The notes under the pieces: model-generated
What the model saw: the letters and a program-made list of their open reading frames with translations, nothing else
Database searches by the model: none
Told to the model about the DNA's origin: nothing
Translations under genes and position numbers: made by a program
NCBI GenBank assembly: GCA_017430145.1
Contig: JAFRNP010000125.1
Location: forward strand, 1-34,293
DNA from: Clostridia bacterium
Lineage (GTDB): Bacteria; Bacillota; Clostridia; Oscillospirales; Acutalibacteraceae
Reading direction: 5' to 3'
Length of the DNA: 34,293 nucleotides
Shown here: positions 1,705 through 29,736 of the stretch, in pieces
How the letters are laid out: each line of letters opens with the position of its first letter
Position numbering within the stretch: position 1 is the stretch's first letter

Positions 1705-1732
1705 TTGACAAATCCCCCGGAAAGCGTATAAT
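1705..1732 (+). promoter_or_regulatory. sigma-A promoter of the ceramidase-like/GH30/transporter cluster
   Basis: TTGACA (1705-1710) and TATAAT (1727-1732) are both perfect, with a 16-nt spacer. The AGGAGG at 1752-1757 follows about 12 nt after the expected start of transcription. No other promoter of comparable quality is seen until after 7864, so the four genes from 1855 to 7864 are probably transcribed from here. Confidence 0.85.
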
Positions 1733-1765
1733 AAAATCAGAATAAAATAACAGGAGGTTGTTAGT

Positions 1766-1801
1766 GTGAAAAATCAGAAGAAAGGAACGATTCGGGCATA
1801 A
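1766..1801 (+). CDS. Possible 11-residue leader peptide (mini-ORF)
   Basis: A GTG at 1766 follows a perfect AGGAGG (1752-1757) with normal spacing and opens an 11-codon frame, MKNQKKGTIRA, ending with TAA at 1799-1801. It has no similarity that I recognise. It is the only start in this leader with a good ribosome site; the downstream signal-peptide gene (1855) has none. The TAA stop runs into a hairpin AAAGTG (1800-1805) / CACTTT (1819-1824). It could be a regulatory leader peptide, or the remnant 5' end of a gene disrupted by an indel, since its frame differs from that of the next CDS. Translation is inferred only. Confidence 0.4.
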   Translation: MKNQKKGTIRA

Positions 1802-7946: not shown

Positions 7947-8176
7947 GCACATTTCTTTCGACTGTGTTTTTTGTTTTGCGCGCAATAATTATTTTTTTAT
8001 TTACAATTTATTCATATTAAAAAGATTGTTAAATATTGACTTAATGACAATAATATAGTATATTCTTAACAGTTATGTGTCTGAAGCTGCACAGATCCCC
8101 ATCCCCGCTGCGTTGCGGCGCTTCGGTACAGGAACTAATTTTTCAAAAGACATTTTTTTCAGGAGGTCATTTCATC
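7947..8176 (+). promoter_or_regulatory. AT-rich promoter and 5' leader of the repeat protein
   Basis: From 7947 to 8070 the DNA is strongly AT-rich, in contrast to the flanking genes. TTGACT (8036-8041) and TATATT (8059-8064) have a 17-nt spacer, giving a start near 8071. The leader of about 105 nt contains a 6-bp hairpin around CGCTGC-gtt-GCGGCG near 8109-8123 and ends with AGGAGGT 8 nt before the GTG start at 8177. No small ORF with its own ribosome site is seen in the leader. Confidence 0.75.
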
Positions 8177-11100
8177 GTGAAACAAACAACTGCCCCTTGC
8201 AAGAAACTGCTCAGTATGCTTCTGAGCGTCCTGCTCGTCCTCGGCTGTCTGACGCCGGCGATCTCACTGACGGCAAAAGCGGACGACCTGAACACCTACC
8301 TTTCCTGGCCCACAGACAAACATAAGTGGACTGCAGTCCGGGCGCAGGACTCTATCGCCTACGGCGACGATATGATGCTGGTATACGAAGACAACGCAGG
8401 CAAAACCTGGGCGCTCGCGAACTCCGGCGGCGACCCGGTCGTTTATCAAGTCTATTTTGAACCAGTCGGCACCGGCAGCTACGGTACGGAATATCAGGTC
8501 CATGTATCTCAGTTCGGCGCAGGCAACAGCCAGAACAGCTTTGAGAACACCTATTACTTCACGTCCAATTCCACTTCCTACAACAACCAACAGGAGTCCT
8601 TCGGTCTATATTCTTACGGTTTATCCTATCTGCGTGTGACTTCAAGTTACGGCTTCAGCTCCAGCGGCGCGAGCTTTTATATGGACAGCCAGGCGTATCT
8701 GACCGATTCCTCAACCTATTACAGCTCCAATTACAATTACCGCACCCTTAACGGATACAAGGTCCGCCTTTACAAAAAAGGTGCGGAGCTGCCGAGCTAT
8801 ACCGTGACCTTCCAGAACTGGAACGGGCAGGTCCTGCAGAGCGGCACGCACTATCAGGGCGCGACCCCCGTCTATGCCGGCACAACGCCCACCCGTACCG
8901 CAACTGCGGAATATACATACGAATTTACGGGCTGGTCCCCTGCCATCACTCCCGTTCAGGGCAATCAGGTTTACACCGCGCAGTATTCTCAGACCAAAAA
9001 TAAGTATACGATCACCTACGTTAACGAGGGCGGCGCCATGCTGCAGGAGTTTACCGAAAGAGAATACGGCACCGCCACGCCCGCATATACCGGGGCCACA
9101 CCCACCATAGCGGACACCGCCGAATACACGTATTCCTTCAAGGGCTGGACCCCCTCTGTCTCGGATACCGTGCTCGGCAACGCAACCTATACGGCGACGT
9201 ATGATGCCCACCGACGCTCCTACCCCATCCACTGGGTCTATTCCGCCGCTGACGCCGCGCGTCTCGGGGTCAGCACTTCGATCAGCGACGTCAGCGTCGA
9301 ATACGGCACCACGCCCGTCGCGCCCACGGTAAACAACTATTCCACCCCCGCCGCAAGCTACACCTTTACGGGCTGGTCCCCCGCAGTTACGTCCGTTACA
9401 GGCGAAACGACCTACACGGCGGTCTTTGAGGAAAATCTGTTTAACTTCTCTGTAGCCTGGCACAACAGCGACGCCCCGAATTATACGGTGCTTGAAACCG
9501 ACTCGCCGGTGCATTACGGCGACACGCTCTCCTACGACAGCGCCACGCCTACCATTCCATCGACCGATGAATTCGACTACACCTTTGCGGGCTGGAACCC
9601 CATCAACCCGCCCGACATCCCCGTTGGCAGCGACTGGACACAGCCGGAGCTCGGTACGGTCACCGGCAACATGCATTTCTACGCCGCTTACACGGCTTCC
9701 GACCGTCTGTATGAGATCAAGTTTGTGGACTGGGACGACACCCAGATCGGCGGAACCCAAAATCTCAAATGGAACGAAAACCCCATTGCGCCGGCAGACC
9801 CCACCCGCACCGACCCCACGGGCGAATACACCTATACGTTCACCGGCTGGGAGCCCACCGTTTCTCCCGTTTCCGGCAACCAGACATATAAGGCAACCTA
9901 CGAAGCCACAAAAAACAAATACGTGGTCACCTTCCTGGACGACGACGAATCGGTGCTTGACAGCAGAGAGTGGGAATACGGCGTCACCCCCACCTGCGCG
10001 ACCCCCACAAAGACGGACACCGATACCGAGTACTACGTATTCAAGGCGTGGGATCCCTCGGTCCAGCCTGTGACCGGCGCAAAGATCTACACCGCAACGT
10101 ACGATACCTATCCCTATTATACCGTCACCTGGCAGTATACCGCAGCGGACGCCGCGCGCAAGGAGCTGACCGACGCCGTGATCAGGGTCGATACAAAGCT
10201 CAAATCCGGCGATCCGATCCCGGCGGCGCCCACAGTCGGCGATTATGAAACCGATACCGCCGAATATTACTTTACCGGCTGGGACGGCACCACCACCGGC
10301 ACGATCACAAACAGCAGCCTTGTCTTTACCGCACAGTTTACCGAGGATCTCTACTACACCGTCACCTGGCAGTATACAGCCGAAGACGCAGCGCGCAAGG
10401 AGCTGACCGACGCCGTGATCAAGGTCGACGAAAAGCTCCACGCGGGCGACCCGATCCCGACGGCGCCCACGGTGAACGACTACGAGACCGCATCCGCCAC
10501 CTACGACTTTACGGGCTGGGACAATGATCCCACCGGCACGGTGACCGGCGATATGACCTTCACCGCGCAGTTTGATGAAAATATCCGCACCTATGCGGTC
10601 CAGTGGATCTACAGCGATGAGGACCTTTCCCGGATCCGGGAGACGACGCCCGCCGCCGTTCAGGTCATCGGCAGCTCGACCGTTAACTACGGCACGCCGA
10701 TCGCCGATCTGACGGCGCCCACAGCGCTTGCGAGCTACTCCACCGACGCGGCGGATTACACCTTTACGGGTTACACCACCACCTATACCGGCGACACGGT
10801 GACAGACGCCGTTACCTACACGGCCGTGTACACCGAGACCCTGCACACCTATAACGTGAGCTGGGTATATGACGACGCGGACCTTGCCCGCATCCAGGCG
10901 ACCGACCCCTCGGCAGTGAAGACCATCAAATCCACCACCGAGACCTACGGCGCCGATATCGCCGCCCTTGCCCCCGCCGTTGCCGATTACGTCACCGACG
11001 AAGCGGATTACACCTTTATCGGCTGGGCGCCCGAGGCGACCGGTACCGTCGGCAGCGAACTGACCTTTGTGGCGCAGTTCAGAAAGGATATCCATAAGTA

Positions 11101-12997
11101 CGACGTGATCTGGGTCTACAGCGACGAGGATCTTGCCCGTCTGCAGGCCATCGATCCCACGATCGAAAAAACGATCAAATCCACGAATGAGGAATACGGC
11201 ACGCCGATCGCCGGTCTCGCGCCGGACGTTGACAACTACCTGACGGCCTCCACCTCTTACGCGTTTACCGGCTGGGATCCCGCGGCAACGGGCACTGTGA
11301 CCGGCGAGATCACGCTGACCGCGCAGTTCACCGGCACGATCCGCACCTTTACCGTCACGTGGAAGAACGAAAACGGGGACACTCTTGAGGTCGACCCAGC
11401 CGTCGAATACGGCACGACGCCCGAGTACAACAGCGCGACCCCCTCGAAGGATGAGGACGACGGGCATACCTACTCCTTCAACACCTGGTCCCCCGCCGTC
11501 GGCCCCATCACCGGCACTACGGTATACTACGCCACCTTTACCGCGCACCTGAAAAAGTTCCCGGTCACCTGGCAATACACGCAGGACGACGCGGACCGTC
11601 AGTTAAAGGACAGCACGCTGATCCGGTATGACGCCGAGGTGGAATATCAGACGATCCCCGTGGCGCCCGCGGTTTCGGATTACTCCACCGCTTCTGCCGA
11701 TTATACCTTTATCGGCTGGAACAAGGAGATCGTGCCCGTGACCGGCGAAGCGACCTACACCGCCAAGTTCAGAGAGACGATCCACACCTATACGGTCAAA
11801 TGGTACAACTCCGACGCGGCGAATACGCTGCTTGAAACGGATGAAAACGTCCCGCACAGCACCACGCCCGAATATAACGGCGAGACCCCGGCGCTCGACT
11901 CCACCGACGAATTTGACTACGAATGGACCGGCTGGAACCCCGTGATCTCCCCGGTGACCGCCGACATCGATTACTACGCGGCTTATAACGCGAACCGCCG
12001 CTCTTACCTGATCCGGTTCCTGGATGAAGACGGCACGGTGCTGCAGGAAGGCTACGTGCCTTACGGCGACACGCCGGCCTTTACGGGCACGGCGCCCACC
12101 AAGACCAGCACCGACCCGCTTTACACCTATTCCTTCGAAGGCTTTACGCCTGACGTCACCCCCGTGACCGGCGCAAAAGACTACACGGCGACCTACCGGC
12201 AGGAAAAGGATCCCGAAAAGTGGACGACCGTCACCTACGTGATCGAGGGCGGCGAACACGGCACGGTCACCGGCGAGATGGTCGTTGAGGTGCCCAAGGA
12301 CAGCCCCTACCAGACAGAGTGGCGTCCCGACGCCACGCCCGAAGCCGGTTACAAGCTTGAATGGATCGACGAGCCCGACGTGGTCACAGGCCCCACCGTC
12401 GTCACCATCCGCTTCAGCTACGACCCCGACCAGTGGGCGACGATCACCTACGAATCCAACAAATACGGCCAGCTGCACGGCGACACCGAGATCACCGTCC
12501 TGAAGGGGACGACCTACAACAACTCCTGGCGTCCGCGCGTACAGCCGAACTTCAACTGCCGCTTCGTGCTGTGGGAAAACGAACCCTCCGTTGTAACCGG
12601 AGACACGACCGTGACCGCGATCTTTGAGGTCAAGAACACCAACGGCGGCAAGATCTCCTGCTTCGAAAAGATCATCCGCTGGTTCCAGAACATCTTCCAC
12701 TGGTTCGCGGGCCTGTTTACCGGTTCCAACAACCAGATCGGCTCCAACGGTTCCAACGGCAGCACCGGCTCCAACGGGTCCACAGGCTCTAATGGCTCCA
12801 CCGGTTCCAACGGGTCCACGGGTTCCAACGGCTCCACGGGTTCCAACGGCTCCACGGGTTCCAACGGCTCCACGGGTTCCAACGGCTCCACGGGTTCCAA
12901 CGGCTCCACCGGTTCCAACGGCTCCACCGGTTCCAACGGCTCCACCGGTTCCAACGGCTCCACGGGGTCCAACGGCTCCACGGGGTCCGGTGAATAA
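8177..12997 (+). CDS. Giant secreted InlB B-repeat protein with Gly-Ser-Asn/Thr tail
   Basis: The GTG at 8177 follows AGGAGGT and gives 1606 residues beginning with a signal peptide (MKQTTAPCKKLLSMLLSVLL..., cleavage near AKA-DD, residue 34). Residues about 35-200 are a Ser/Tyr-rich beta-type domain I do not recognise. About 15 modules of the InlB B-repeat (Listeria-Bacteroides repeat) type follow, from near 8800 to 12210, each ending in a Y-x-F-x-G-W ... Y-x-A-x-F/Y pattern. Short (about 60 aa) and long (about 79-85 aa, starting W-x-Y-x3-D) versions alternate. Two divergent modules (12220-12630) share W...EP.VVTG. Then comes an aromatic amphipathic stretch CFEKIIRWFQNIFHWFAGLF and a tail of 13 GSNGST units ending GSGE. 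There is no LPxTG or SLH motif, so how it is held at the surface is unclear. Probable adhesin or surface protein. Confidence 0.85.
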   Translation: MKQTTAPCKKLLSMLLSVLLVLGCLTPAISLTAKADDLNTYLSWPTDKHKWTAVRAQDSIAYGDDMMLVYEDNAGKTWALANSGGDPVVYQVYFEPVGTGSYGTEYQVHVSQFGAGNSQNSFENTYYFTSNSTSYNNQQESFGLYSYGLSYLRVTSSYGFSSSGASFYMDSQAYLTDSSTYYSSNYNYRTLNGYKVRLYKKGAELPSYTVTFQNWNGQVLQSGTHYQGATPVYAGTTPTRTATAEYTYEFTGWSPAITPVQGNQVYTAQYSQTKNKYTITYVNEGGAMLQEFTEREYGTATPAYTGATPTIADTAEYTYSFKGWTPSVSDTVLGNATYTATYDAHRRSYPIHWVYSAADAARLGVSTSISDVSVEYGTTPVAPTVNNYSTPAASYTFTGWSPAVTSVTGETTYTAVFEENLFNFSVAWHNSDAPNYTVLETDSPVHYGDTLSYDSATPTIPSTDEFDYTFAGWNPINPPDIPVGSDWTQPELGTVTGNMHFYAAYTASDRLYEIKFVDWDDTQIGGTQNLKWNENPIAPADPTRTDPTGEYTYTFTGWEPTVSPVSGNQTYKATYEATKNKYVVTFLDDDESVLDSREWEYGVTPTCATPTKTDTDTEYYVFKAWDPSVQPVTGAKIYTATYDTYPYYTVTWQYTAADAARKELTDAVIRVDTKLKSGDPIPAAPTVGDYETDTAEYYFTGWDGTTTGTITNSSLVFTAQFTEDLYYTVTWQYTAEDAARKELTDAVIKVDEKLHAGDPIPTAPTVNDYETASATYDFTGWDNDPTGTVTGDMTFTAQFDENIRTYAVQWIYSDEDLSRIRETTPAAVQVIGSSTVNYGTPIADLTAPTALASYSTDAADYTFTGYTTTYTGDTVTDAVTYTAVYTETLHTYNVSWVYDDADLARIQATDPSAVKTIKSTTETYGADIAALAPAVADYVTDEADYTFIGWAPEATGTVGSELTFVAQFRKDIHKYDVIWVYSDEDLARLQAIDPTIEKTIKSTNEEYGTPIAGLAPDVDNYLTASTSYAFTGWDPAATGTVTGEITLTAQFTGTIRTFTVTWKNENGDTLEVDPAVEYGTTPEYNSATPSKDEDDGHTYSFNTWSPAVGPITGTTVYYATFTAHLKKFPVTWQYTQDDADRQLKDSTLIRYDAEVEYQTIPVAPAVSDYSTASADYTFIGWNKEIVPVTGEATYTAKFRETIHTYTVKWYNSDAANTLLETDENVPHSTTPEYNGETPALDSTDEFDYEWTGWNPVISPVTADIDYYAAYNANRRSYLIRFLDEDGTVLQEGYVPYGDTPAFTGTAPTKTSTDPLYTYSFEGFTPDVTPVTGAKDYTATYRQEKDPEKWTTVTYVIEGGEHGTVTGEMVVEVPKDSPYQTEWRPDATPEAGYKLEWIDEPDVVTGPTVVTIRFSYDPDQWATITYESNKYGQLHGDTEITVLKGTTYNNSWRPRVQPNFNCRFVLWENEPSVVTGDTTVTAIFEVKNTNGGKISCFEKIIRWFQNIFHWFAGLFTGSNNQIGSNGSNGSTGSNGSTGSNGSTGSNGSTGSNGSTGSNGSTGSNGSTGSNGSTGSNGSTGSNGSTGSNGSTGSNGSTGSNGSTGSGE
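10115..10588 (+). repeat. 237-bp tandem duplication inside the InlB repeat gene
   Basis: Two adjacent units of 79 codons (from 10115 and from 10352) encode modules both starting YYTVTWQYTA and both containing DAARKELTDAVI; they are clearly more alike than other modules in the gene. The matching DNA anchors lie at 10121 and 10358. This indicates a recent in-frame duplication within the array. Confidence 0.7.
12749..12982 (+). repeat. 18-bp coding minisatellite, 13 copies
   Basis: Thirteen head-to-tail 18-bp units with consensus GGTTCCAACGGCTCCACG, each encoding Gly-Ser-Asn-Gly-Ser-Thr. Units 5-12 differ only at the last base (G or C), while units 1-4 are more divergent, the pattern expected for recent expansion by slippage. 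Copy-number changes would stay in frame and alter only tail length. The Gly-X-Y periodicity resembles collagen-like sequence but has no proline. Confidence 0.9.
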
Positions 12998-17146: not shown

Positions 17147-17190
17147 CCCGAAGGGGCGTCTTCATTCTCCCGAAGGGGCGTCTTCATTCT
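17147..17190. repeat. 22-bp perfect tandem duplication across the ANTAR gene stop
   Basis: Positions 17147-17168 and 17169-17190 are identical. Each copy starts CCCGAAGGGG and ends TTCATTCT. The ANTAR stop codon (17184-17186) lies in the second copy, so the duplication places a second copy of the gene end just downstream. Each copy has a short GC hairpin (CCCC-gaa-GGGG). Confidence 0.85.
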
Positions 17191-17771
17191 TTCTCCGGGG
17201 GGTTCAGGATCTCCTCGGCGACGGCGCGGCGGGTGATGCAGCGGTCCATCGCCTGCTTTTCAATATACCGGTGGGCGGTGGGCTCGTCCATATGCGCGTG
17301 CTCGATCAGCACCCATTTGGCGCGGTTGACAAGCCGGATCTCCTCCATCTTCTCTTCCAGCGTCAGCGTCCGCCGCTCGGTCTTTCTGAGCCGCTCCCGG
17401 GCGCTTGCCATCCAGCCGAGAACGGTCTCCATCATGCTGCGGGACGTGGGCTTTGAGACGGTAAAGACGCCATGCTCCGAGACCCGGTCCGTGACCTCGG
17501 TGAAATAGTCCGAACGCACCATCAGCAGGACCACGGTCTCGCTGCCGCTGCACAGGTCGATGGCGAACCGGAGCCCCGGATCGTCCGGCAAGGGGGAATT
17601 GACGATCACAAAATCGTACGTCTGCTCGCCAAAGATGCGCCTTGCGCTGCTGATATCGGACGCCACGTCGATCTTTTGGCATTTTGCAGCCAAAATCTCC
17701 GTCAAAGCGCGGTTGAGGCTTTCGGCGGCGGAAACCAGAAGCACGCTGTATAAACGTACCTTCAGCGACAT
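17184..17771 (-). CDS. ANTAR-domain antiterminator regulator with degenerate receiver
   Basis: A 195-residue protein. The C-terminal about 60 residues (EEKMEEIRLVNRAKWVLIEH, TAHRYIEKQAMD, AVAEEIL) are an ANTAR domain, an RNA-binding module that relieves intrinsic terminators in leaders. The N-terminal part has the receiver fold, but the acidic pair is replaced (LLVSAAES at 11-18) and the phospho-acceptor position is Asn58 in VIVNSPLPD; the Lys-Pro of KPTS (107-108) is kept. It is thus probably a pseudo-receiver not controlled by normal phosphorylation. The predicted start (ATG 17771) has AAAGGAGGGG upstream. It ends the glutamine synthetase/glutamate synthase operon, which points to nitrogen control. 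Likely targets are the hairpins in the two divergent leaders at 24098-24480. Confidence 0.9.
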   Translation of the reverse strand: MSLKVRLYSVLLVSAAESLNRALTEILAAKCQKIDVASDISSARRIFGEQTYDFVIVNSPLPDDPGLRFAIDLCSGSETVVLLMVRSDYFTEVTDRVSEHGVFTVSKPTSRSMMETVLGWMASARERLRKTERRTLTLEEKMEEIRLVNRAKWVLIEHAHMDEPTAHRYIEKQAMDRCITRRAVAEEILNPPEKE

Positions 17772-17837: not shown

Positions 17838-19052
17838 TTAATTACCGGCGCAATAGGCGTCTATGACAGCGGCGGGAAGATGCGCACGGATAAAGGCGCT
17901 GTCCGACGCCGCCTGCCGCGCTTCATCCAGCGACTGCGGCAGCTTGCGATAGCGGGAAAGCGTTTCTTCGTCCGCCGTAAACAGGTTCAGATCCGCAGCA
18001 GCCGGCAGCGCCGTCCCTTCGGCGATCCCGTCCAGCGCCGCGTGGATCATCAGCGCAAAGGCAATGTACGGGTTTGCGGACGGATCCGGCGAACGCAGCT
18101 CCATACGGCGGTACTCCCCGACAGCCGCGGGGATCCGGATAAGCTGCGAGCGGTTCTCCCTTGACCAGGAGACGTATCCCGGCGCCTTTTGCTGCCCGAG
18201 CCTGCGGTAGGAGCTTTCGGTCGGGTTCAAAAACAGCGTCATCGCGGGGACCTTGTCCAGAATGCCCGCAATGATCGATTCAAATACGGCGTCGTTCTCC
18301 GCGGGCTGCACGGACATATTGATGTGGAAGCCGTTGCCCGGCGCGTTGTCCAGAGGCTTTGCGGAAAAATCCGCGTGATAGCCGCCGAGATGCGCCACCG
18401 TTTCCACAACGGTCTGGAAGATGATCGCCTGGTCGGCGGCGGTCAGGGCGTCCGCGTAACGGAAATCGATCTCGTTCTGCCCCGGGCCCTCCTCGTGGTG
18501 GGAGCTTTCGGGGCGCACGCCCATCTGCTCCAGCGTCAGGCACACGTCCCGGCGCACGTTCTCTCCCCTGTCGGCGGGGGCGATATCCATATAGCCCGCC
18601 GCGTCGCACGGGACCTTTGTGGGAAGGCCGTTTTCATCCAGACGGAACAGATAGAATTCCTGCTCCGCGCCGAAGAAAAACCCGTACCCCATCTCCTTCG
18701 CCCGCTCCATGGCCCTTTTCAGAATGTAGCGGGGATCCAGCTCAAAGGGCGATCCGTCCGGGCGGGTGATCCCGGAGACCATCCGCACCACCCTGCCGTG
18801 CTCCGGACGCCACGGGAGCGACGTCAGCGTTTCGGGCTCCGGGCGCAGGAACAGATCGCTGCGGGTCTCGTTGCCGAACCCGGCGATGGCGGAGGCGTCA
18901 AAGGCGATGCCGTGCCGGAAGGCGCGGGGCAATTCATCGGGCATAACGGAAATGTTTTTCCGTTTGCCGAAGACGTCGCAGAACGCAAGCCTGATAAACT
19001 TTACGTCCTCCTCCTGCATATACTGCATGATCTCATCCACTTCGTATTTCAT
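17838..19052 (-). CDS. glnA: Glutamine synthetase, short type I
   Basis: Makes glutamine from glutamate, ammonia and ATP. At 404 residues it is shorter than the usual 440-470 but has the whole type-I core: N-terminal beta-grasp (FIRLAFCDVFGKRKNISV), metal-binding FGAEQEFYLF, SHHEEGPGQNEID, GNGFHINMS, NPTESSYRRL, SRENRSQLIRIP and RSPDPSANPYIAFA. The adenylylation loop typical of the beta subclass is not evident. ATG 19052 follows AAAGGAA. It lies 16 nt downstream of the GltB3-type gene and 66 nt upstream of the ANTAR gene, so GS and GOGAT are probably co-expressed. A second, unrelated class (GSIII) is encoded at 25846. Confidence 0.93.
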   Translation of the reverse strand: MKYEVDEIMQYMQEEDVKFIRLAFCDVFGKRKNISVMPDELPRAFRHGIAFDASAIAGFGNETRSDLFLRPEPETLTSLPWRPEHGRVVRMVSGITRPDGSPFELDPRYILKRAMERAKEMGYGFFFGAEQEFYLFRLDENGLPTKVPCDAAGYMDIAPADRGENVRRDVCLTLEQMGVRPESSHHEEGPGQNEIDFRYADALTAADQAIIFQTVVETVAHLGGYHADFSAKPLDNAPGNGFHINMSVQPAENDAVFESIIAGILDKVPAMTLFLNPTESSYRRLGQQKAPGYVSWSRENRSQLIRIPAAVGEYRRMELRSPDPSANPYIAFALMIHAALDGIAEGTALPAAADLNLFTADEETLSRYRKLPQSLDEARQAASDSAFIRAHLPAAVIDAYCAGN

Positions 19053-21464: not shown

Positions 21465-22970
21465 TTATTCCCCCGCGTGGGAGATCCCGAGGATCTCCAG
21501 TTCCTTTTCCGTCAGGCCCACGCCTCTGAGCATGAGCCGGTTGCCTCTGAGCGCCTCAATGGAATTGATACCCATACCGCCGAGGAGCTCCTTGATCTCG
21601 TGCCGCCAGGCGTTCATGAGGTTTATAAGCCTTCTGCTGCCGTCGTCCGGGTTCAGGCGGCGGACCAGCTCCGGCTGCTGGGTGGCGATGCCCCAGTTGC
21701 ATTTGCCGCTCTGGCAGGTGCGGCACAGATGGCAGCCCAGCGCCAGAAGCGCCGCCGTCGCGATATAGCAGGCGTCCGCGCCCAGCGCGATCGCCTTGAC
21801 CACGTCCGCCGCGCTGCGCACGGACCCGCCGGCGATCAGGGACACGTTGTTTCGGATGCCCTCGTCCCGAAGCCTTTGGTCCACGGACGCATGCGCCAGC
21901 TCAATGGGGATCCCCACGTTGTCGCGGATGCGGGTCGGCGCTGCGCCGGTGCCGCCGCGGAAGCCGTCGATGGCAATGATATCTGCGCCGCTGCGGGCGA
22001 CGCCGCTGGCAATGGCGGCGATATTATGTACGGCCGCCACCTTTACGATGATCGGCTTCTGATAGCAGGTGGCCTCCTTTAACGAAAAAACGAGCTGCCG
22101 CAGGTCCTCGATGGAATAGATGTCGTGGTGCGGCGCCGGGGAGATCGCGTCGGACCCCTCCGGGATCATCCGGGTCCTCGAAACGTCCCCGACGATCTTC
22201 GCGCCGGGCAGGTGCCCGCCGATACCGGGCTTTGCGCCCTGCCCCATCTTGATCTCGATGGCGGCGCCGGCCTCCAGATACTTTTCGTGCACGCCGAACC
22301 GCCCGCTCGCCACCTGTACCACCGTGTTTTTCCCGTACCGGTAAAAATCCTCGTGCAGGCCGCCCTCGCCCGTATTGTACACGATCCCGAGCGCGGTTGC
22401 CGCCCGCGCCAGCGACGCGTGGGCGTTGTAGCTGATGGAACCGTAGCTCATGGCGGAAAACATAACGGGCATCGAAAGCTCGATCTGCGGCGGCAGGCGG
22501 CAGATCAGGCTGCCGTCGGGCCCGCGTTCGAGCTTCTCCGGCTTTTTGCCGAGGAACACGCGGGTCTCCATGGGTTCCCTTAAAGGGTCGATCGGCGGGT
22601 TCGTGACCTGGGAGGCGTTGATCAGCAGCCGGTCCCAATACACCGGCAGGGGCTTGGGGTTGCCCATGGAGGACAGAAGCACGCCGCCGGTGTTCGCCTG
22701 CTTGTAGATCTCCCGCACCGTATCGTTGTCCCAGTTGGCGTTTTCACGCAGGCGGCAGTCGCTTTTCACGATCTTGAGCGCCCGGGTGGGACACAGGGAG
22801 ACGCACCGCTGGCAGTTGACGCACTTGGTCTCGTCGCTGACCATCACGCCTTTTTCGTCGAGATACATATGGACCCCGTTGGCGCACTGCCGCTCACACA
22901 CCCGGCAGGCGATGCAGCGGGCGTCGCTGCGGACCACTTCAAATTCGGGGGTAATATTGATCCGAGTCAA
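21465..22970 (-). CDS. Glutamate synthase FMN-binding synthase subunit
   Basis: A 501-residue subunit with two N-terminal [4Fe-4S] motifs (C19/22/25/29 in CIACRVCERQC; C50/53/56/60 in CVNCQRCVSLCP) and the FMN-binding TIM barrel of glutamate synthase: MSYGSISYNAHASLARAA, NTGEGG, KMGQGAKPGIGGHLPG, IDGFRGGTGAAP. The CHLCRTCQSGKCNWGIAT stretch carries the FeS cysteines of the synthase domain. It converts 2-oxoglutarate plus ammonia (from the amidotransferase subunit) to glutamate. I place the start at TTG 22970, giving MTRINITPEF, because AAAGGAGG lies 9 nt upstream and its TTGA overlaps the TGA stop of the amidotransferase gene by 4 nt; an upstream in-frame start at 23027 would overlap that gene by 61 nt. 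Confidence 0.93.
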   Translation of the reverse strand: MTRINITPEFEVVRSDARCIACRVCERQCANGVHMYLDEKGVMVSDETKCVNCQRCVSLCPTRALKIVKSDCRLRENANWDNDTVREIYKQANTGGVLLSSMGNPKPLPVYWDRLLINASQVTNPPIDPLREPMETRVFLGKKPEKLERGPDGSLICRLPPQIELSMPVMFSAMSYGSISYNAHASLARAATALGIVYNTGEGGLHEDFYRYGKNTVVQVASGRFGVHEKYLEAGAAIEIKMGQGAKPGIGGHLPGAKIVGDVSRTRMIPEGSDAISPAPHHDIYSIEDLRQLVFSLKEATCYQKPIIVKVAAVHNIAAIASGVARSGADIIAIDGFRGGTGAAPTRIRDNVGIPIELAHASVDQRLRDEGIRNNVSLIAGGSVRSAADVVKAIALGADACYIATAALLALGCHLCRTCQSGKCNWGIATQQPELVRRLNPDDGSRRLINLMNAWRHEIKELLGGMGINSIEALRGNRLMLRGVGLTEKELEILGISHAGE

Positions 22971-24070
22971 AGCTGAACACCCTCCTTTACGCGTACGATG
23001 ACCGGTTCGCCGCCGGCAGGCGCCCAAATGTTTTCCGCGTCGGGCTCCAAAATCCGGATCGCCGCCTCTTCGCTGGCAATGAACACGCGATCGTCCTTTT
23101 CACCCACCACCATCGAGCGCAGCTTCAGGCGGTCGTTGAGCGCCATGAGCCCGCCGGTAAAGCCCAGCACGATGGAAAACGGGCCCGTGACCAACAGGCT
23201 CGGGAACAGCGTGCGCAGATAGATATGCTTTTCTTTATCCAGTAAATCGGTTTTGTTTTCGATCGTGCTCCAGAAAGGCGCAGCCACCACGCTCGCCGCC
23301 TCCCCGGGGGTCAGCCCCTGCCGCCGGATCAGATGGTCCATGATATAGGTGATTACCTCCGTATCCGTCTGCAGCGTGCACCGGTATCCGAACATCTCGA
23401 TAAAGCGGCGGTTGGCGTCGTAAGAGGAGATCTCGCCGTTATGCACAACGCTCCAGTCCAGCAGCACGAAGGGATGCGCCCCGCCCCACCAGCCGGGCGT
23501 GTTGGTGGGGTACCTGCCGTGCGCCGTCCAGCAATACCCCGCGTATTCCTCCAGCCGGTAGTACCGCCCCACGTCCTCCGGGAAGCCCACCGCCTTGAAC
23601 GCGCCCATGTTTTTGCCGCTGGAAAAGACGTACGCGCCCGGTATCGTCGTATTGATCTTCATCACGGTCCTCACGACGTATTCCTTTTCGTCAAGCTGCA
23701 GCTCCGACAGTACGGACTTCAGCGGCGCCACGAAATACCGCCAGCAGATCGGCTCGTCGGTGATCTGCGGGATCTTGCGCGTGGGGATGTGCTCCGATTT
23801 ATAGATCTCAAAGCCCTCTTTGAGCATGGCTTCACAGGTTTTACGCGTATCACGGCTGTCAAAAAACAGGTGCAGCGCGTAAAAATCCCTGTATTCGGGA
23901 TAGATCCCGTATGCGGCAAAGCCGCCGCCGAGCCCGTTGGACCGGTCGTGCATGGGACGCATGGCGTTTACGATCCCTTCTCCGGACATCCGCTCGCCGC
24001 TTCTGGAGATCACCGCCGCGATCGCGCAGCCGGCGGGAATACGGACCTGCCCCTCCATCGGTTTCATCAT
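22967..24070 (-). CDS. Glutamate synthase class-II glutamine amidotransferase subunit
   Basis: A 367-residue stand-alone amidotransferase (GATase II) that releases ammonia from glutamine for the FMN subunit. Core motifs are AHGRYPTNTPGWWGGAHPF, VVHNGEISSYD and the likely nucleophile Cys15 in IPAGCAIAAV. The Cys is preceded by 14 residues, which implies removal of a propeptide or a different N-terminal arrangement from the usual Met-Cys start. The start is placed at ATG 24070 with AAGGGA upstream; an in-frame ATG (24097) further up lacks a ribosome site. It is the first gene of the operon, about 90 nt after the predicted transcription start and downstream of a terminator-like hairpin. Confidence 0.9.
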   Translation of the reverse strand: MMKPMEGQVRIPAGCAIAAVISRSGERMSGEGIVNAMRPMHDRSNGLGGGFAAYGIYPEYRDFYALHLFFDSRDTRKTCEAMLKEGFEIYKSEHIPTRKIPQITDEPICWRYFVAPLKSVLSELQLDEKEYVVRTVMKINTTIPGAYVFSSGKNMGAFKAVGFPEDVGRYYRLEEYAGYCWTAHGRYPTNTPGWWGGAHPFVLLDWSVVHNGEISSYDANRRFIEMFGYRCTLQTDTEVITYIMDHLIRRQGLTPGEAASVVAAPFWSTIENKTDLLDKEKHIYLRTLFPSLLVTGPFSIVLGFTGGLMALNDRLKLRSMVVGEKDDRVFIASEEAAIRILEPDAENIWAPAGGEPVIVRVKEGVQL

Positions 24071-24096
24071 CGGTTCCCTTCTTTCATTCAGAAACA

Positions 24097-24158
24097 TAAA
24101 AAAGAAAAAGCGCTCATTTTCAGCGGATACGCCTCCGCAAAAAATGAACGCCTTTGCT
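24097..24158 (-). promoter_or_regulatory. Attenuator hairpin in the glutamate synthase operon leader
   Basis: On the minus strand, AAAGGCGTTCATTTT (24155-24141) pairs with AAAATGAGCGCTTT (24120 downwards), a stem of about 15 bp with two G-U pairs, around an inner hairpin GCGGA-ggcgta-TCCGC. A T-rich run (TTTTTCTTTTTTT, to about 24098) follows. The structure begins only a few nt after the predicted start of transcription and lies before the first gene, so it should stop transcription unless prevented. Its 5' arm AGCAAAGGCGT (24158-24148) recurs in the divergent gdhA leader. Confidence 0.75.
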
Positions 24159-24168
24159 CATTACCTGC

Positions 24169-24197
24169 ATTATACGCCTGTTTTGCGCCTGCGTCAA
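24169..24197 (-). promoter_or_regulatory. sigma-A promoter of the glutamate synthase operon
   Basis: Minus strand: TTGACG (24197-24192), 17-nt spacer, TATAAT (24174-24169). Confidence 0.85.
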
Positions 24198-24302
24198 GAG
24201 AGAATACCCGATAATACACGGAGCGTCCGACAAAAAACGACGGAAGCAAGCCGTTTTTTTTGGTTAATTTGTGAAATTTTTATCAAACTCAGAAAAAAGG
24301 AA
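24198..24302. other. Core of divergent intergenic region
   Basis: About 100 nt between the two divergent promoters. It is AT-rich towards the plus-strand promoter and holds a weak hairpin ACGG (near 24230)-CCGT followed by a run of eight T (near 24253). No ORF or recognised operator is seen. Confidence 0.4.
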
Positions 24303-24330
24303 TTGACAATTCCCGTACAGAGGGTATAAT
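24303..24330 (+). promoter_or_regulatory. sigma-A promoter of the gdhA-glnN-amt-asnB-dap operon
   Basis: TTGACA (24303-24308) and TATAAT (24325-24330), both perfect, with a 16-nt spacer. Confidence 0.88.
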
Positions 24331-24342
24331 GGAAGTCGGAAA

Positions 24343-24386
24343 GGCAATGGGGTCTTTGAGCGTTTCGGCTCGAAGACCCTTTTCGT
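24343..24386 (+). promoter_or_regulatory. First attenuator (terminator-like hairpin) in the gdhA leader
   Basis: GGGTCTT-t-GAGC (24350-24361), loop GTTTCG, GCTC-g-AAGACCC (24368-24379), then TTTTCGTTT. It lies just after the predicted start of transcription and about 100 nt before gdhA. The 5' arm with its preceding bases reads GGCAATGGGGTCTT (24343-24356), matching the second attenuator arm at 12 of 14 positions. Confidence 0.75.
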
Positions 24387-24419
24387 TTCCCGGAAGATTA
24401 AAAAATTTATACATTATAA

Positions 24420-24480
24420 GGCAAAGGCGTCTTGTTCTCCGGCGGTTCCCCAACCGCCGGGCAAGGCGCTTTTTTGCTTT
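24420..24480 (+). promoter_or_regulatory. Second attenuator (terminator-like hairpin) in the gdhA leader
   Basis: Inner stem CCGGCGGTT (24439-24447) cccc AACCGCCGG (24452-24460), outer stem AAAGGCGTCTTG (24423-24434) with CAAGGCGCTTTT (24462-24473, three G-U pairs), followed by TTTTTTGCTTTT. It ends only about 5 nt before the gdhA ribosome site, so gdhA expression requires read-through. The 5' arm GGCAAAGGCGTCTT (24420-24433) is the recurring sequence. Confidence 0.8.
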
Positions 24481-24483
24481 TAA

Positions 24484-25833
<1,350 letters not shown>

Positions 25834-27981: not shown

Positions 27982-29736
27982 ATGGCAGCAGAACAACTGA
28001 CAAGCCTGATCGACGGCGCCGTAACGAAAGAAGTTTTCGGCGTATGGTTTCTGATCGGCGCGGCGCTCGTGTTTTTGATGCAGGCAGGCTTCGCCATGGT
28101 GGAGACCGGCTTTACGAGGGCGAAAAACGCGGGCAATATCATTATGAAAAACCTGATGGATTTCTGCATCGGTACCGTCGTGTTCGTGCTTCTGGGCTTT
28201 GGGCTGATGATGTCGGAGGACTACGTGCTGGGGCTGTTCGGGGTCCCGAACCTGTCCATCCTCACCGATTTCGGCTCGTTTCTTGAAAGCGGCAGCGCCC
28301 CTTCGTTCGTGTTCAACCTTGTGTTCTGCGCCACCGCCGCCACCATCGTGTCGGGCGCCATGGCGGAGCGCACGAGGTTTTTGTCCTACTGTATCTATTC
28401 GGGCGTGATCTCGCTGTTCGTCTACCCGGTGGAGGCCGGCTGGGTCTGGAACCCGCAGGGGTGGCTCGCGCAGCTCGGCTTCCATGATTTTGCCGGCAGC
28501 GCGGCGATCCATTCCGTGGGCGGGATCACCGCCCTGATCGGGGCGATCATGGTGGGCCCGAGGCTCGGGAAATACGCAAAGGACGCCGCCGGCAAGGTAA
28601 ATAAGGTCAACGCGATCCCGGGGCATTCCATCACCCTCGGCGCGCTGGGCTGCTTCATTTTGTGGTTCGGCTGGTACGGCTTCAACGGCGCGGCCGCCTG
28701 GGACGGCAATTCGCTCGCTTCCATTTTTGTCACGACCACCGTCGCCCCCGCCGTCGCCACCTGCGCGACCATGATCTTCACCTGGATCAAAAACGGCAAG
28801 CCCGACGTTTCCATGTGCCTGAACGGTTCTTTGGCGGGGCTTGTGGGCGTTACCGCAGGATGCGACGCGGTGGACGCGTTCGGCGCCGCCGTGATCGGGA
28901 CCGTCTCCGGTATACTGGTCGTGGCGGCCGTGGAGGTCCTGGACCTGAAATGCCACATTGACGACCCGGTCGGCGCAGTGGGCGTGCATTTTGCAAACGG
29001 CGTATGGGGCACGCTTGCCGTGGGGCTTCTGGCGAACCCCAAAGCCCCGGCGGGGCTCAGCGGCCTGTTCTATACGGGGAATGCGCGTCTCTTCGGCGTA
29101 CAGGCGCTTGGGATCCTTGCGATCCTCGGCTGGACGGCGGCGACCATGACGCTGACCTTCTTTGCCATCAAAAAGACGGTCGGGCTGCGCGCGTCGGCTC
29201 AAGAGGAGATCCGCGGGCTTGACAAGACCGAACACGGCCTTCCGAGCGCGTACGCGGACTTCGTGCCCGCAGTCGAGAACCTGGATTACGGTTACCCGCA
29301 GGCAGTGGCGGTCGCCGGCGACGTGCCCGTTACCGAAGCGGTCCCGGTCAGAAAAGCGCCGGTCTTTTCAGACGATTCCCCCAAATTCACAAAGGTGGAG
29401 ATCGTTTGCCGCGAATCCCGCTTGGAGCCGCTGAAATCGGCGATGATGGACCTCGGCATCACGGGCATGACGGTCTCGCACGTGCTCGGCTGCGGCGTAC
29501 AGCAGGGCAAACCCGAATACTACCGCGGCGTCCAGGTGGAGGCGAGCCTTTTGCCGAAGGTGCAGGTCGATATCGTCGTCAGCAAGGTGCCGGTGCGCAG
29601 CGTGATCGAAGCTGCAAAGCGTGTGCTTTACACCGGGCATATCGGCGACGGCAAGATCTTTGTATATGACGTAGAAAACGTGGTCAAGGTCCGCACCGGC
29701 GAGGAAGGCTACGACGCGCTGCAGGACGTGGAATAA
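27982..29736 (+). CDS. amt: Ammonium transporter fused to a P-II signalling domain
   Basis: Residues 1 to about 405 are an 11-helix Amt/MEP/Rh ammonium channel with the two pore histidines in IHSVGG and VHFANGVWG and the usual GFAMVETGFTR and NPQGWLAQLGFHDFAGS stretches. After a linker (about 406-467) residues 468-578 form a GlnB/GlnK-type P-II domain: VEIVCRESRLEPLKSAM, GCGVQQGKPEYYRG (T-loop, Tyr514 at the place of the modifiable Tyr51), LPKVQVDIVV and GHIGDGKIFVYDVENVVKVRTGEEG. Normally GlnK is a separate protein that blocks AmtB when nitrogen is plentiful; here sensor and channel are one 584-residue chain, so gating should be intramolecular. GAAGGAG lies 7 nt before ATG 27982. No separate glnK or glnD is in the window. 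Confidence 0.95.
   Translation: MAAEQLTSLIDGAVTKEVFGVWFLIGAALVFLMQAGFAMVETGFTRAKNAGNIIMKNLMDFCIGTVVFVLLGFGLMMSEDYVLGLFGVPNLSILTDFGSFLESGSAPSFVFNLVFCATAATIVSGAMAERTRFLSYCIYSGVISLFVYPVEAGWVWNPQGWLAQLGFHDFAGSAAIHSVGGITALIGAIMVGPRLGKYAKDAAGKVNKVNAIPGHSITLGALGCFILWFGWYGFNGAAAWDGNSLASIFVTTTVAPAVATCATMIFTWIKNGKPDVSMCLNGSLAGLVGVTAGCDAVDAFGAAVIGTVSGILVVAAVEVLDLKCHIDDPVGAVGVHFANGVWGTLAVGLLANPKAPAGLSGLFYTGNARLFGVQALGILAILGWTAATMTLTFFAIKKTVGLRASAQEEIRGLDKTEHGLPSAYADFVPAVENLDYGYPQAVAVAGDVPVTEAVPVRKAPVFSDDSPKFTKVEIVCRESRLEPLKSAMMDLGITGMTVSHVLGCGVQQGKPEYYRGVQVEASLLPKVQVDIVVSKVPVRSVIEAAKRVLYTGHIGDGKIFVYDVENVVKVRTGEEGYDALQDVE

Follow-up and report, generated by a model that had tools for sequence, protein, structure and literature searches.

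In the 34,293-nucleotide (nt) contig JAFRNP010000125.1 of a Clostridia bacterium of the Acutalibacteraceae (assembly GCA_017430145.1; the whole contig is referred to as the window), two nitrogen operons diverge from a gap of 400 nt. On the minus strand lies an operon for a gltB-type glutamate synthase subunit, glutamine synthetase (GS) and an ANTAR protein, and on the plus strand one for gdhA, glnN, amt with a fused PII domain, and asnB. Within the gap lie two strong promoters facing away from each other and three hairpins that resemble terminators. Our analysis of the sequence indicates that each leader probably combines an ANTAR antiterminator of a single hexaloop with an intrinsic terminator. 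In all three units of the window the hexaloop starts with A and has G as its fourth base (A1/G4), which is the published ANTAR signature (PMC3369931), and the 3' strand of each hexaloop stem doubles as the 5' arm of a terminator. The two folds are therefore mutually exclusive, as in ANTAR antitermination.

In the minus leader, the promoter scan identified a -35 box TTGACG (24192..24197) and a -10 box TATAAT (24169..24174), from which the transcription start (+1) was placed near 24162. The hairpin AAUGAGC[AAAGGC]GUUCAUU (24143..24162, loop 24155-24150, minus strand; -5.7 kcal/mol, z -4.0) thus sits where the RNA is inferred to begin and is a putative ANTAR-stabilised antiterminator. Its 3' half is overlapped by the intrinsic terminator (24102..24155, minus strand), with -31.1 kcal/mol and z -6.2 for 24102-24163. 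In the plus leader, the boxes TTGACA (24303..24308) and TATAAT (24325..24330) place +1 near 24337 and are followed by two units. Unit 1 is the hairpin AAAGGC[AAUGGG]GUCUUU (24340..24357, loop 24346-24351, plus strand; -4.1 kcal/mol, z -3.2) with a terminator-like hairpin of 13 bp (24349..24380). Unit 2, whose loop starts 77 nt after that of unit 1, is AAGGC[AAAGGC]GUCUU (24418..24433, loop 24423-24428, plus strand), which is weak on its own (-3.6 kcal/mol, z -1.9), with a terminator at 24425..24476 that ends in a T6 tract (-36.9 kcal/mol for 24417-24478, z -5.6). In every unit the hexaloop hairpin overlaps the terminator 5' arm, that of unit 1 being followed by a weak U tract. Since the terminator folds reach -31 to -37 kcal/mol, the small hexaloop hairpin would need help to persist.

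The region had been singled out by a first-pass annotation made from the sequence alone, which described three repeated 5' arms, GGCAATGGGGTCTT from 24343 and GGCAAAGGCGTCTT from 24420 on the plus strand and AGCAAAGGCGTTCA at 24158-24145 on the minus strand, and both sequences and coordinates were confirmed. The matches given for these arms (12/14 for the plus pair, 10/11 for the minus copy against the second plus copy) are correct, as are the shared 3' arms GGCGCTTTTTT and AGCGCTTTTT. The near-consensus promoters claimed ahead of the hairpins score 12/12 on the plus strand (24303-24330) and 11/12 on the minus strand (24197-24169), and three promoter-like sites were found in 4 kb compared with a mean of 1.2 in shuffles. 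As to the proposed three terminator-like hairpins, all of them fold far below shuffles (z -5.6 to -6.2); the first plus hairpin, however, has no more than a weak T tract (TTTTCGTTTCC) behind it and may for this reason terminate weakly. The statement that a classical ANTAR target is not evident holds for the close second hairpin, which is absent, but not for the A1/G4 hexaloops, which are present and lie within the shared 5' arms. The inner terminator loops considered in that annotation (GUUUCG and GGCGUA) were rejected as ANTAR loops, being variable between relatives by reading.

Both strands of the window contain 30 A1/G4 hexaloop stems of at least 5 bp, of which six have the GC[..]G type; the three leader stems within a region of 441 nt are all of this type (binomial 4e-5, a post-hoc test). 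A repeat finder reported 88% identity over 16 nt for the plus pair and 10 nt at 100% for the plus/minus pair. The terminator finder lends no support, because it gave four sites compared with 5.1 in shuffles and reported just one of the three hairpins. A search of Rfam 15 gave no match in the window; the best E value over 24060-24500 was 0.86, far under the gathering score of that family.

To place the element in relatives, a gapped pattern from the minus leader was run on 39 genomes, with matches in 33. As 97 pattern matches were obtained compared with 104 for the reversed control, the count alone is uninformative and the signal lies in the context of the matches. From the 97, 33 motif-like regions were chosen; eight loci (L078 and L085-L091) were dropped as coding, promoter-less or not the element. 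The alignment (n=33) comprises 30 promoter-plus-hairpin sites of relatives, the pyrG leader of the window's own genome and the two window leaders; L084, which has no clear promoter, and the second unit of L064 were left out. Over the seven stem pairs 95.2% of the cells are paired (0/500 shuffles), five of the seven pairs show changes on both sides (28/500 shuffles reach as many) and the covariation score is 0.584 compared with at most 0.181 for slid versions. The paired stem is kept by compensatory change, and this covariation in relatives includes the stem of the minus leader.

Two main stem versions were found, AAGGC/GUCUU and UGAGC/GUUCA, together with the rarer GAGGC/GUCUC, ACAGC/GCUGU, UGAAC/GUUCA and AGGGC/GUCCU and a further AAUGAAC/GUUCAUU, all with the same loop type. 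The second stem pair is G-U in 33/33 aligned rows, and G-C in the rarer ACAGC version. The latter, ACAGC[AAAG(G/A)C]GCUGU, was seen in five loci (L257 on the plus strand, L263 and L266 on the minus strand, L260 on the minus strand before glnN and L265 on the plus strand before asnA), three of which have a -10 box TACAAT and a spacer of 18. The distance from the -10 box to the first loop position is nearly fixed at 12-18 nt, mostly 13-16.

The covariance model R1, built from promoter plus hairpin of this alignment, finds three strong copies in the window's own genome (E 7e-11, 2e-9 and 2e-8), ahead of the gltB-type operon, the gdhA operon and, on another contig, pyrG; all three are part of the model, including the minus leader (E 7e-11) and unit 1 (E 2.4e-8), and the next best row has 28.8 bits. 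Among 77 weaker rows of that genome, 27 of which have loci, one (L132) is unit 2 of the gdhA leader and the other 26 lack a GC-closed loop; three weaker rows are A/U-rich or unrelated A1/G4 stems. The bare string GGCAAAGGCGT was likewise rejected as a definition of the element. It occurs 27 times in the genome (reversed control 7), 25 of the 27 being coding by context and only those of gdhA and pyrG lying in leaders.

Of 197 sampled genomes of the order, 99 have an R1 match at E<=1e-3 and 55 have one at E<=1e-5, the latter termed strong. Sixty regions were fetched, mostly those above about 40 bits and their divergent partners (G170, G175 and G207 are not among them), and the hexaloop is present in 59 of the 60. 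The exception, L259 (G032, minus strand), has a 3-bp version of the hairpin, AAAGGC[AAAGAC]GCC, which runs directly into a strong terminator. In 51 of the 55 strong-match genomes the loop was read directly, and 49 of these 51 have an ANTAR gene. A sample of 293 genomes of the class gave 19 matches at E<=1e-6, and the 11 of them outside the order all show the A1/G4 loop. Conservation, the lack of which the first-pass annotation had named beforehand as speaking against a shared motif, was found in members of the same genus, in further families of the order and also beyond the order. As that annotation had proposed, the covariance-model search placed the element ahead of glnA, gltB-type genes, gdhA, amt and glnN, together with ANTAR genes in most but not all genomes. 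The sequence comparisons thus favour both a shared element with attenuation in the two leaders and, with exceptions given below, the suggested role of the island's own ANTAR protein as the leading candidate factor.

Across all scanned loci the loop is of the A1/G4 type in 202/209, a figure that is partly due to construction because most loci were fetched by the motif. A fairer set consists of 80 loci fetched by the ANTAR protein alone, a few of which coincide with genomes already used. Here, 75 of 88 hexaloop hairpins (at least 6 bp) located 10-19 nt past the promoter have A1 and G4, in 48 of the 80 loci. This proportion is 4/49 at 30-39 nt and 3/54 at 40-69 nt, and it is up again at 70-99 nt (33/71), where second units lie. 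R1 matches 50/80 of these loci at E<=1e-3; many of the others lie on short contigs, which may end before the first gene of the operon.

ANTAR targets described so far have two hexaloop hairpins separated by a linker of 2-25 nt (PMC8164766). In our 202 leaders, a second A1/G4 hexaloop with a linker of 0-25 nt downstream was not found above chance, with 19 cases compared with 19.7 in shuffles for stems of at least 3 bp, 4 compared with 9.3 for at least 4 bp and 2 compared with 3.3 for at least 5 bp. Upstream there is no room for another hairpin, as only 0-7 nt lie between the inferred +1 and the first paired base (stem counted to 7 bp). A terminator 3' arm complementary to the 3' strand of the hexaloop stem is present in 180 of the 202 leaders, compared with 23.8 in mononucleotide shuffles. 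In 60/202 leaders a second complete AA.G.. unit follows 25-110 nt further on, and the gdhA leader of the window (77 nt) is of that kind. Close dual hexaloops with a T5 tract were absent from both strands of 16 ANTAR loci, 12 of which also lack the single element, and over all 80 named ANTAR loci 10 such pairs were found in seven loci. As the close second hairpin is lacking, the leaders were not classed in the dual-hexaloop family of ANTAR targets; they very probably work like its members.

The candidate trans-acting factor is encoded at the end of the minus operon (17184..17771, minus strand). Its ANTAR domain (PF03861) scores 63 bits compared with a cut-off of 27.3, and it is the only ANTAR match at E<=1e-3 in this genome, which is 86.6% complete. 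The receiver is degenerate and lacks a phosphorylatable Asp, as Asn58 occupies the phospho-Asp site of Rv1626 and EutV. In an alignment of 28 ANTAR proteins this position is Asn in 27 and Gln in one, and a separate scripted reading of 48 proteins gave Asn in 40 and the canonical Asp in one (L194), which makes a sensor kinase unlikely. Directly upstream lies the gene for glutamine synthetase (17838..19052, minus strand; PF00120, 293 bits), and the same adjacency was found in 67/67 named loci with at least 1.5 kb of upstream sequence, 13 shorter loci being left out; because the loci were ranked by similarity, this count describes one subfamily.

With phylogeny ignored throughout, ANTAR genes were found in 52/55 strong-match genomes of the order compared with 131/197 overall (Fisher p 3e-8), in 18/19 matching genomes of the class compared with 156/293, and outside the order in 10/11 compared with 142/278 (p 0.01). 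At a stricter cut-off of E<=1.3e-7, which was chosen afterwards, the order gave 41/41. A part of this co-occurrence is linkage, because the ANTAR gene often lies close to one copy of the element.

Several observations weigh against an ANTAR protein acting on a single hexaloop. Antitermination at eut needs two hairpins (PMC8934654), and several residues through which EutV contacts RNA are not conserved among the aligned ANTAR proteins, the equivalent of Met172 being invariant. Four genomes have the element and no detectable ANTAR gene, namely G021 (97% complete), G094 (93%), G107 (99%) and G257 (97%, 6% contaminated). When G021, G094 and G107 were searched under lax settings, only weak ANTAR matches came up, none of them backed by tblastn. 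As the close GS homologue is also missing in these three, loss or an assembly gap may be involved, and another factor is still a candidate. G170 has an R1 match at E 1e-5 (model match only) and no ANTAR gene. In G006, which also lacks the gene, contig C2 stops about 280 nt after the GS gene, which would explain the absence. Conversely, a strong R1 match is lacking in 79 of the order's 131 ANTAR genomes, and 32 of the 80 ANTAR loci show no hairpin in the promoter-hexaloop scan. In Mediterraneibacter agrestimuris (L351) the GS-ANTAR pair is present, and no AA.G hexaloop hairpin was found outside long open reading frames in 20.6 kb.

In relatives the element is located at the inferred RNA 5' end of its target leaders, and in a profile search of representatives the downstream genes were pyrG, purC, purA, guaA, purF, asnB, asnA, amt, glnA (partial sequence), glnN and a carbon-nitrogen hydrolase gene, with gltB-type genes, gdhA and glnN dominating by reading. 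Among the identified genes, which serve ammonia, glutamine or nucleotide metabolism, the sole misfit is an ATP-synthase a-subunit-like gene (L066 in G005, near 1720-1783, minus strand). In the genome of the window, the third strong copy ahead of pyrG would add up with the two divergent leaders to a small glutamine/ammonia regulon.

In sequence, each leader has a strong promoter and, within about 30 nt of the -10 box, a hairpin with the loop AANGRN (A1, G4), and only one of the two folds can form at a time. In the mechanism that we propose, the terminator would win without active regulator and transcription would stop ahead of the first gene. Upon nitrogen or glutamine shortage, the operon's own ANTAR protein would bind the hexaloop and hold the 5' strand of the terminator, so that the polymerase could pass. 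The gdhA leader has two of these units one after the other, both with a terminator-like hairpin of their own. As the receiver mostly lacks the phospho-acceptor Asp and the gene follows that of GS in every locus examined, the most likely signal would be the glutamine status relayed via GS rather than by a sensor kinase, which is the least certain step. Taken further, a lone hexaloop at the very 5' end may suffice as an ANTAR antiterminator in a widespread clostridial glutamine regulon. Its reader would be an ANTAR protein that is not phosphorylated and is signalled by the GS of the adjacent gene, and the regulon would co-ordinate the assimilation of ammonia with those steps in the synthesis of purines, CTP and asparagine that consume glutamine; we put this reading forward tentatively, at slightly less than an even chance.

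There are however other ways to read these leaders. The hexaloop hairpin could be recognised by a different RNA-binding factor, the ANTAR gene merely riding in one of the operons, and both the linkage mentioned above and the persistence of hexaloop leaders in G021, G094, G107 and G257 would fit this possibility. We consider it unlikely, since the loop follows the A1/G4 rule published for ANTAR, is common to leaders on other contigs (pyrG here, purC and purA in relatives) and co-occurs with ANTAR genes also outside the order. It is similarly improbable that the leaders are classical dual-hairpin targets with an unusually long linker, in which the two gdhA hexaloops, 77 nt apart, would be P1 and P2. 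The second units in 60/202 leaders, a count that has no shuffled control, would be in line with such an arrangement, but 142 of the 202 leaders have one unit only, as have the gltB-type leader of the window and the pyrG leader of its genome, and unit 1 has its own overlapping terminator-like hairpin. Moreover, lengthening the eut linker by 20 nt abolishes antitermination (PMC8934654).

The near-fixed spacing to the -10 box and the palindromic look could also point towards a DNA operator that straddles +1 and serves a repressor or activator, with the hairpin being incidental. This is very unlikely, as a G-U second pair in all 33 aligned rows would be unusual in a DNA site with symmetry, the 3' strand is coupled to the terminator arm further downstream and the second units about 70 nt further on obey the same loop rule. 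Nucleotide-sensing attenuation during initiation is known for Bacillus pyrG. The element opens the inferred transcript and precedes pyrG and purine genes in some genomes, which might suggest that the terminators are constitutive dampers or protein-free attenuators which sense nucleotide levels directly at initiation. There is very little chance of this as well, because initiation effects would not be expected to yield a stem that covaries, with a loop that hardly changes, in gdhA, gltB-type, amt and asnA leaders alike.

The constant gene neighbour of the ANTAR protein described here is glutamine synthetase, whereas AmiR is under the control of its partner AmiC. AmiR and other pseudo-receiver ANTAR proteins (PMC3369936) resemble it in having a non-phosphorylated receiver-like domain followed by the ANTAR domain. 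The eut, nas and ami leaders, which are controlled by EutV, NasR and AmiR (Ramesh et al. 2012, PMC3369931), are like the leaders of the window in their A1/G4 hexaloop, in the overlap of the hairpin with the terminator 5' arm and in belonging to nitrogen genes, but they have two hexaloop hairpins with a short linker instead of one at the inferred 5' end with no second nearby above chance. NitR, an ANTAR protein of C. saccharobutylicum, has been credited with the antitermination that induces the glutamine synthetase/glutamate synthase (GS/GOGAT) genes upon nitrogen limitation (PMC6316151, citing Stutz et al. 2007). It is likewise an ANTAR protein tied to such genes in a Clostridium, a likeness by description only, and purine, pyrimidine, gdhA and amt targets are not mentioned in the available part of that description (PMC6316151). 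In addition, dual-hairpin matches have been reported at glutamate synthase genes, ammonium transporters and glutamate/glutamine synthases (Ramesh et al., PMC3369931; PMC3369936). Given these reports and that on NitR, ANTAR control of such nitrogen genes is not new.

In searches of open-access papers, we found no account of a single hexaloop placed at +1 in this way, nor of an extension to gdhA and to the synthesis of asparagine, purines and CTP. On single-hexaloop ANTAR sites, these searches yielded only structural work on EutV (Walshe et al. 2022, PMC8934654), according to which the smallest site that an ANTAR protein binds is one hexaloop. On ANTAR control of glutamine synthetase leaders in Firmicutes they yielded only a commentary of 2012, and on antitermination of pyrG and guaA in Clostridia one paper on acetogen genomes. 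The single sites proposed by the structural work resemble those described here in that one hexaloop would be enough for binding; the latter differ in that they sit on terminators. The same work left open why two hexaloops are needed although the protein grips one at a time, and called for single-hexaloop studies (PMC8934654). The many leaders described here have the appearance of single-hexaloop sites that occur naturally on terminators, and this question thereby becomes directly testable. They further hint at a way in which Clostridia of the gut and rumen could use RNA to adjust the supply of glutamine and the demand for it together. As the motif is short (promoter, 13-16 nt, AAAGGC-type hexaloop), the regulon is easy to list in other genomes.

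As to the genes of the two operons, the first gene of the minus operon encodes a glutamine amidotransferase (GATase)-type glutamate synthase subunit (22967..24070, minus strand; PF00310). Its start is suggested to be the ATG at 24070 because homologues start with MKxEGQVRIPSG; this is preferred over the listed ATG at 24097, which falls just past the U tract of the terminator (24067-24097, minus strand). The plus operon starts with gdhA (24499..25833, plus strand), followed by glnN, the amt-PII fusion, asnB, dapF and an aminotransferase gene according to Pfam. In the fusion (27982-29736, plus strand), a single gene encodes an ammonium transporter with a C-terminal P-II domain. Elsewhere in the window, a 1640-residue open reading frame (8075-12997, plus strand) contains collagen-triple-helix repeats (PF01391) near its C terminus. 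An open frame at the contig end (33399-34292, minus strand) contains immunoglobulin I-set domains (PF07679, 60.6 bits), which is unusual for such a genome.
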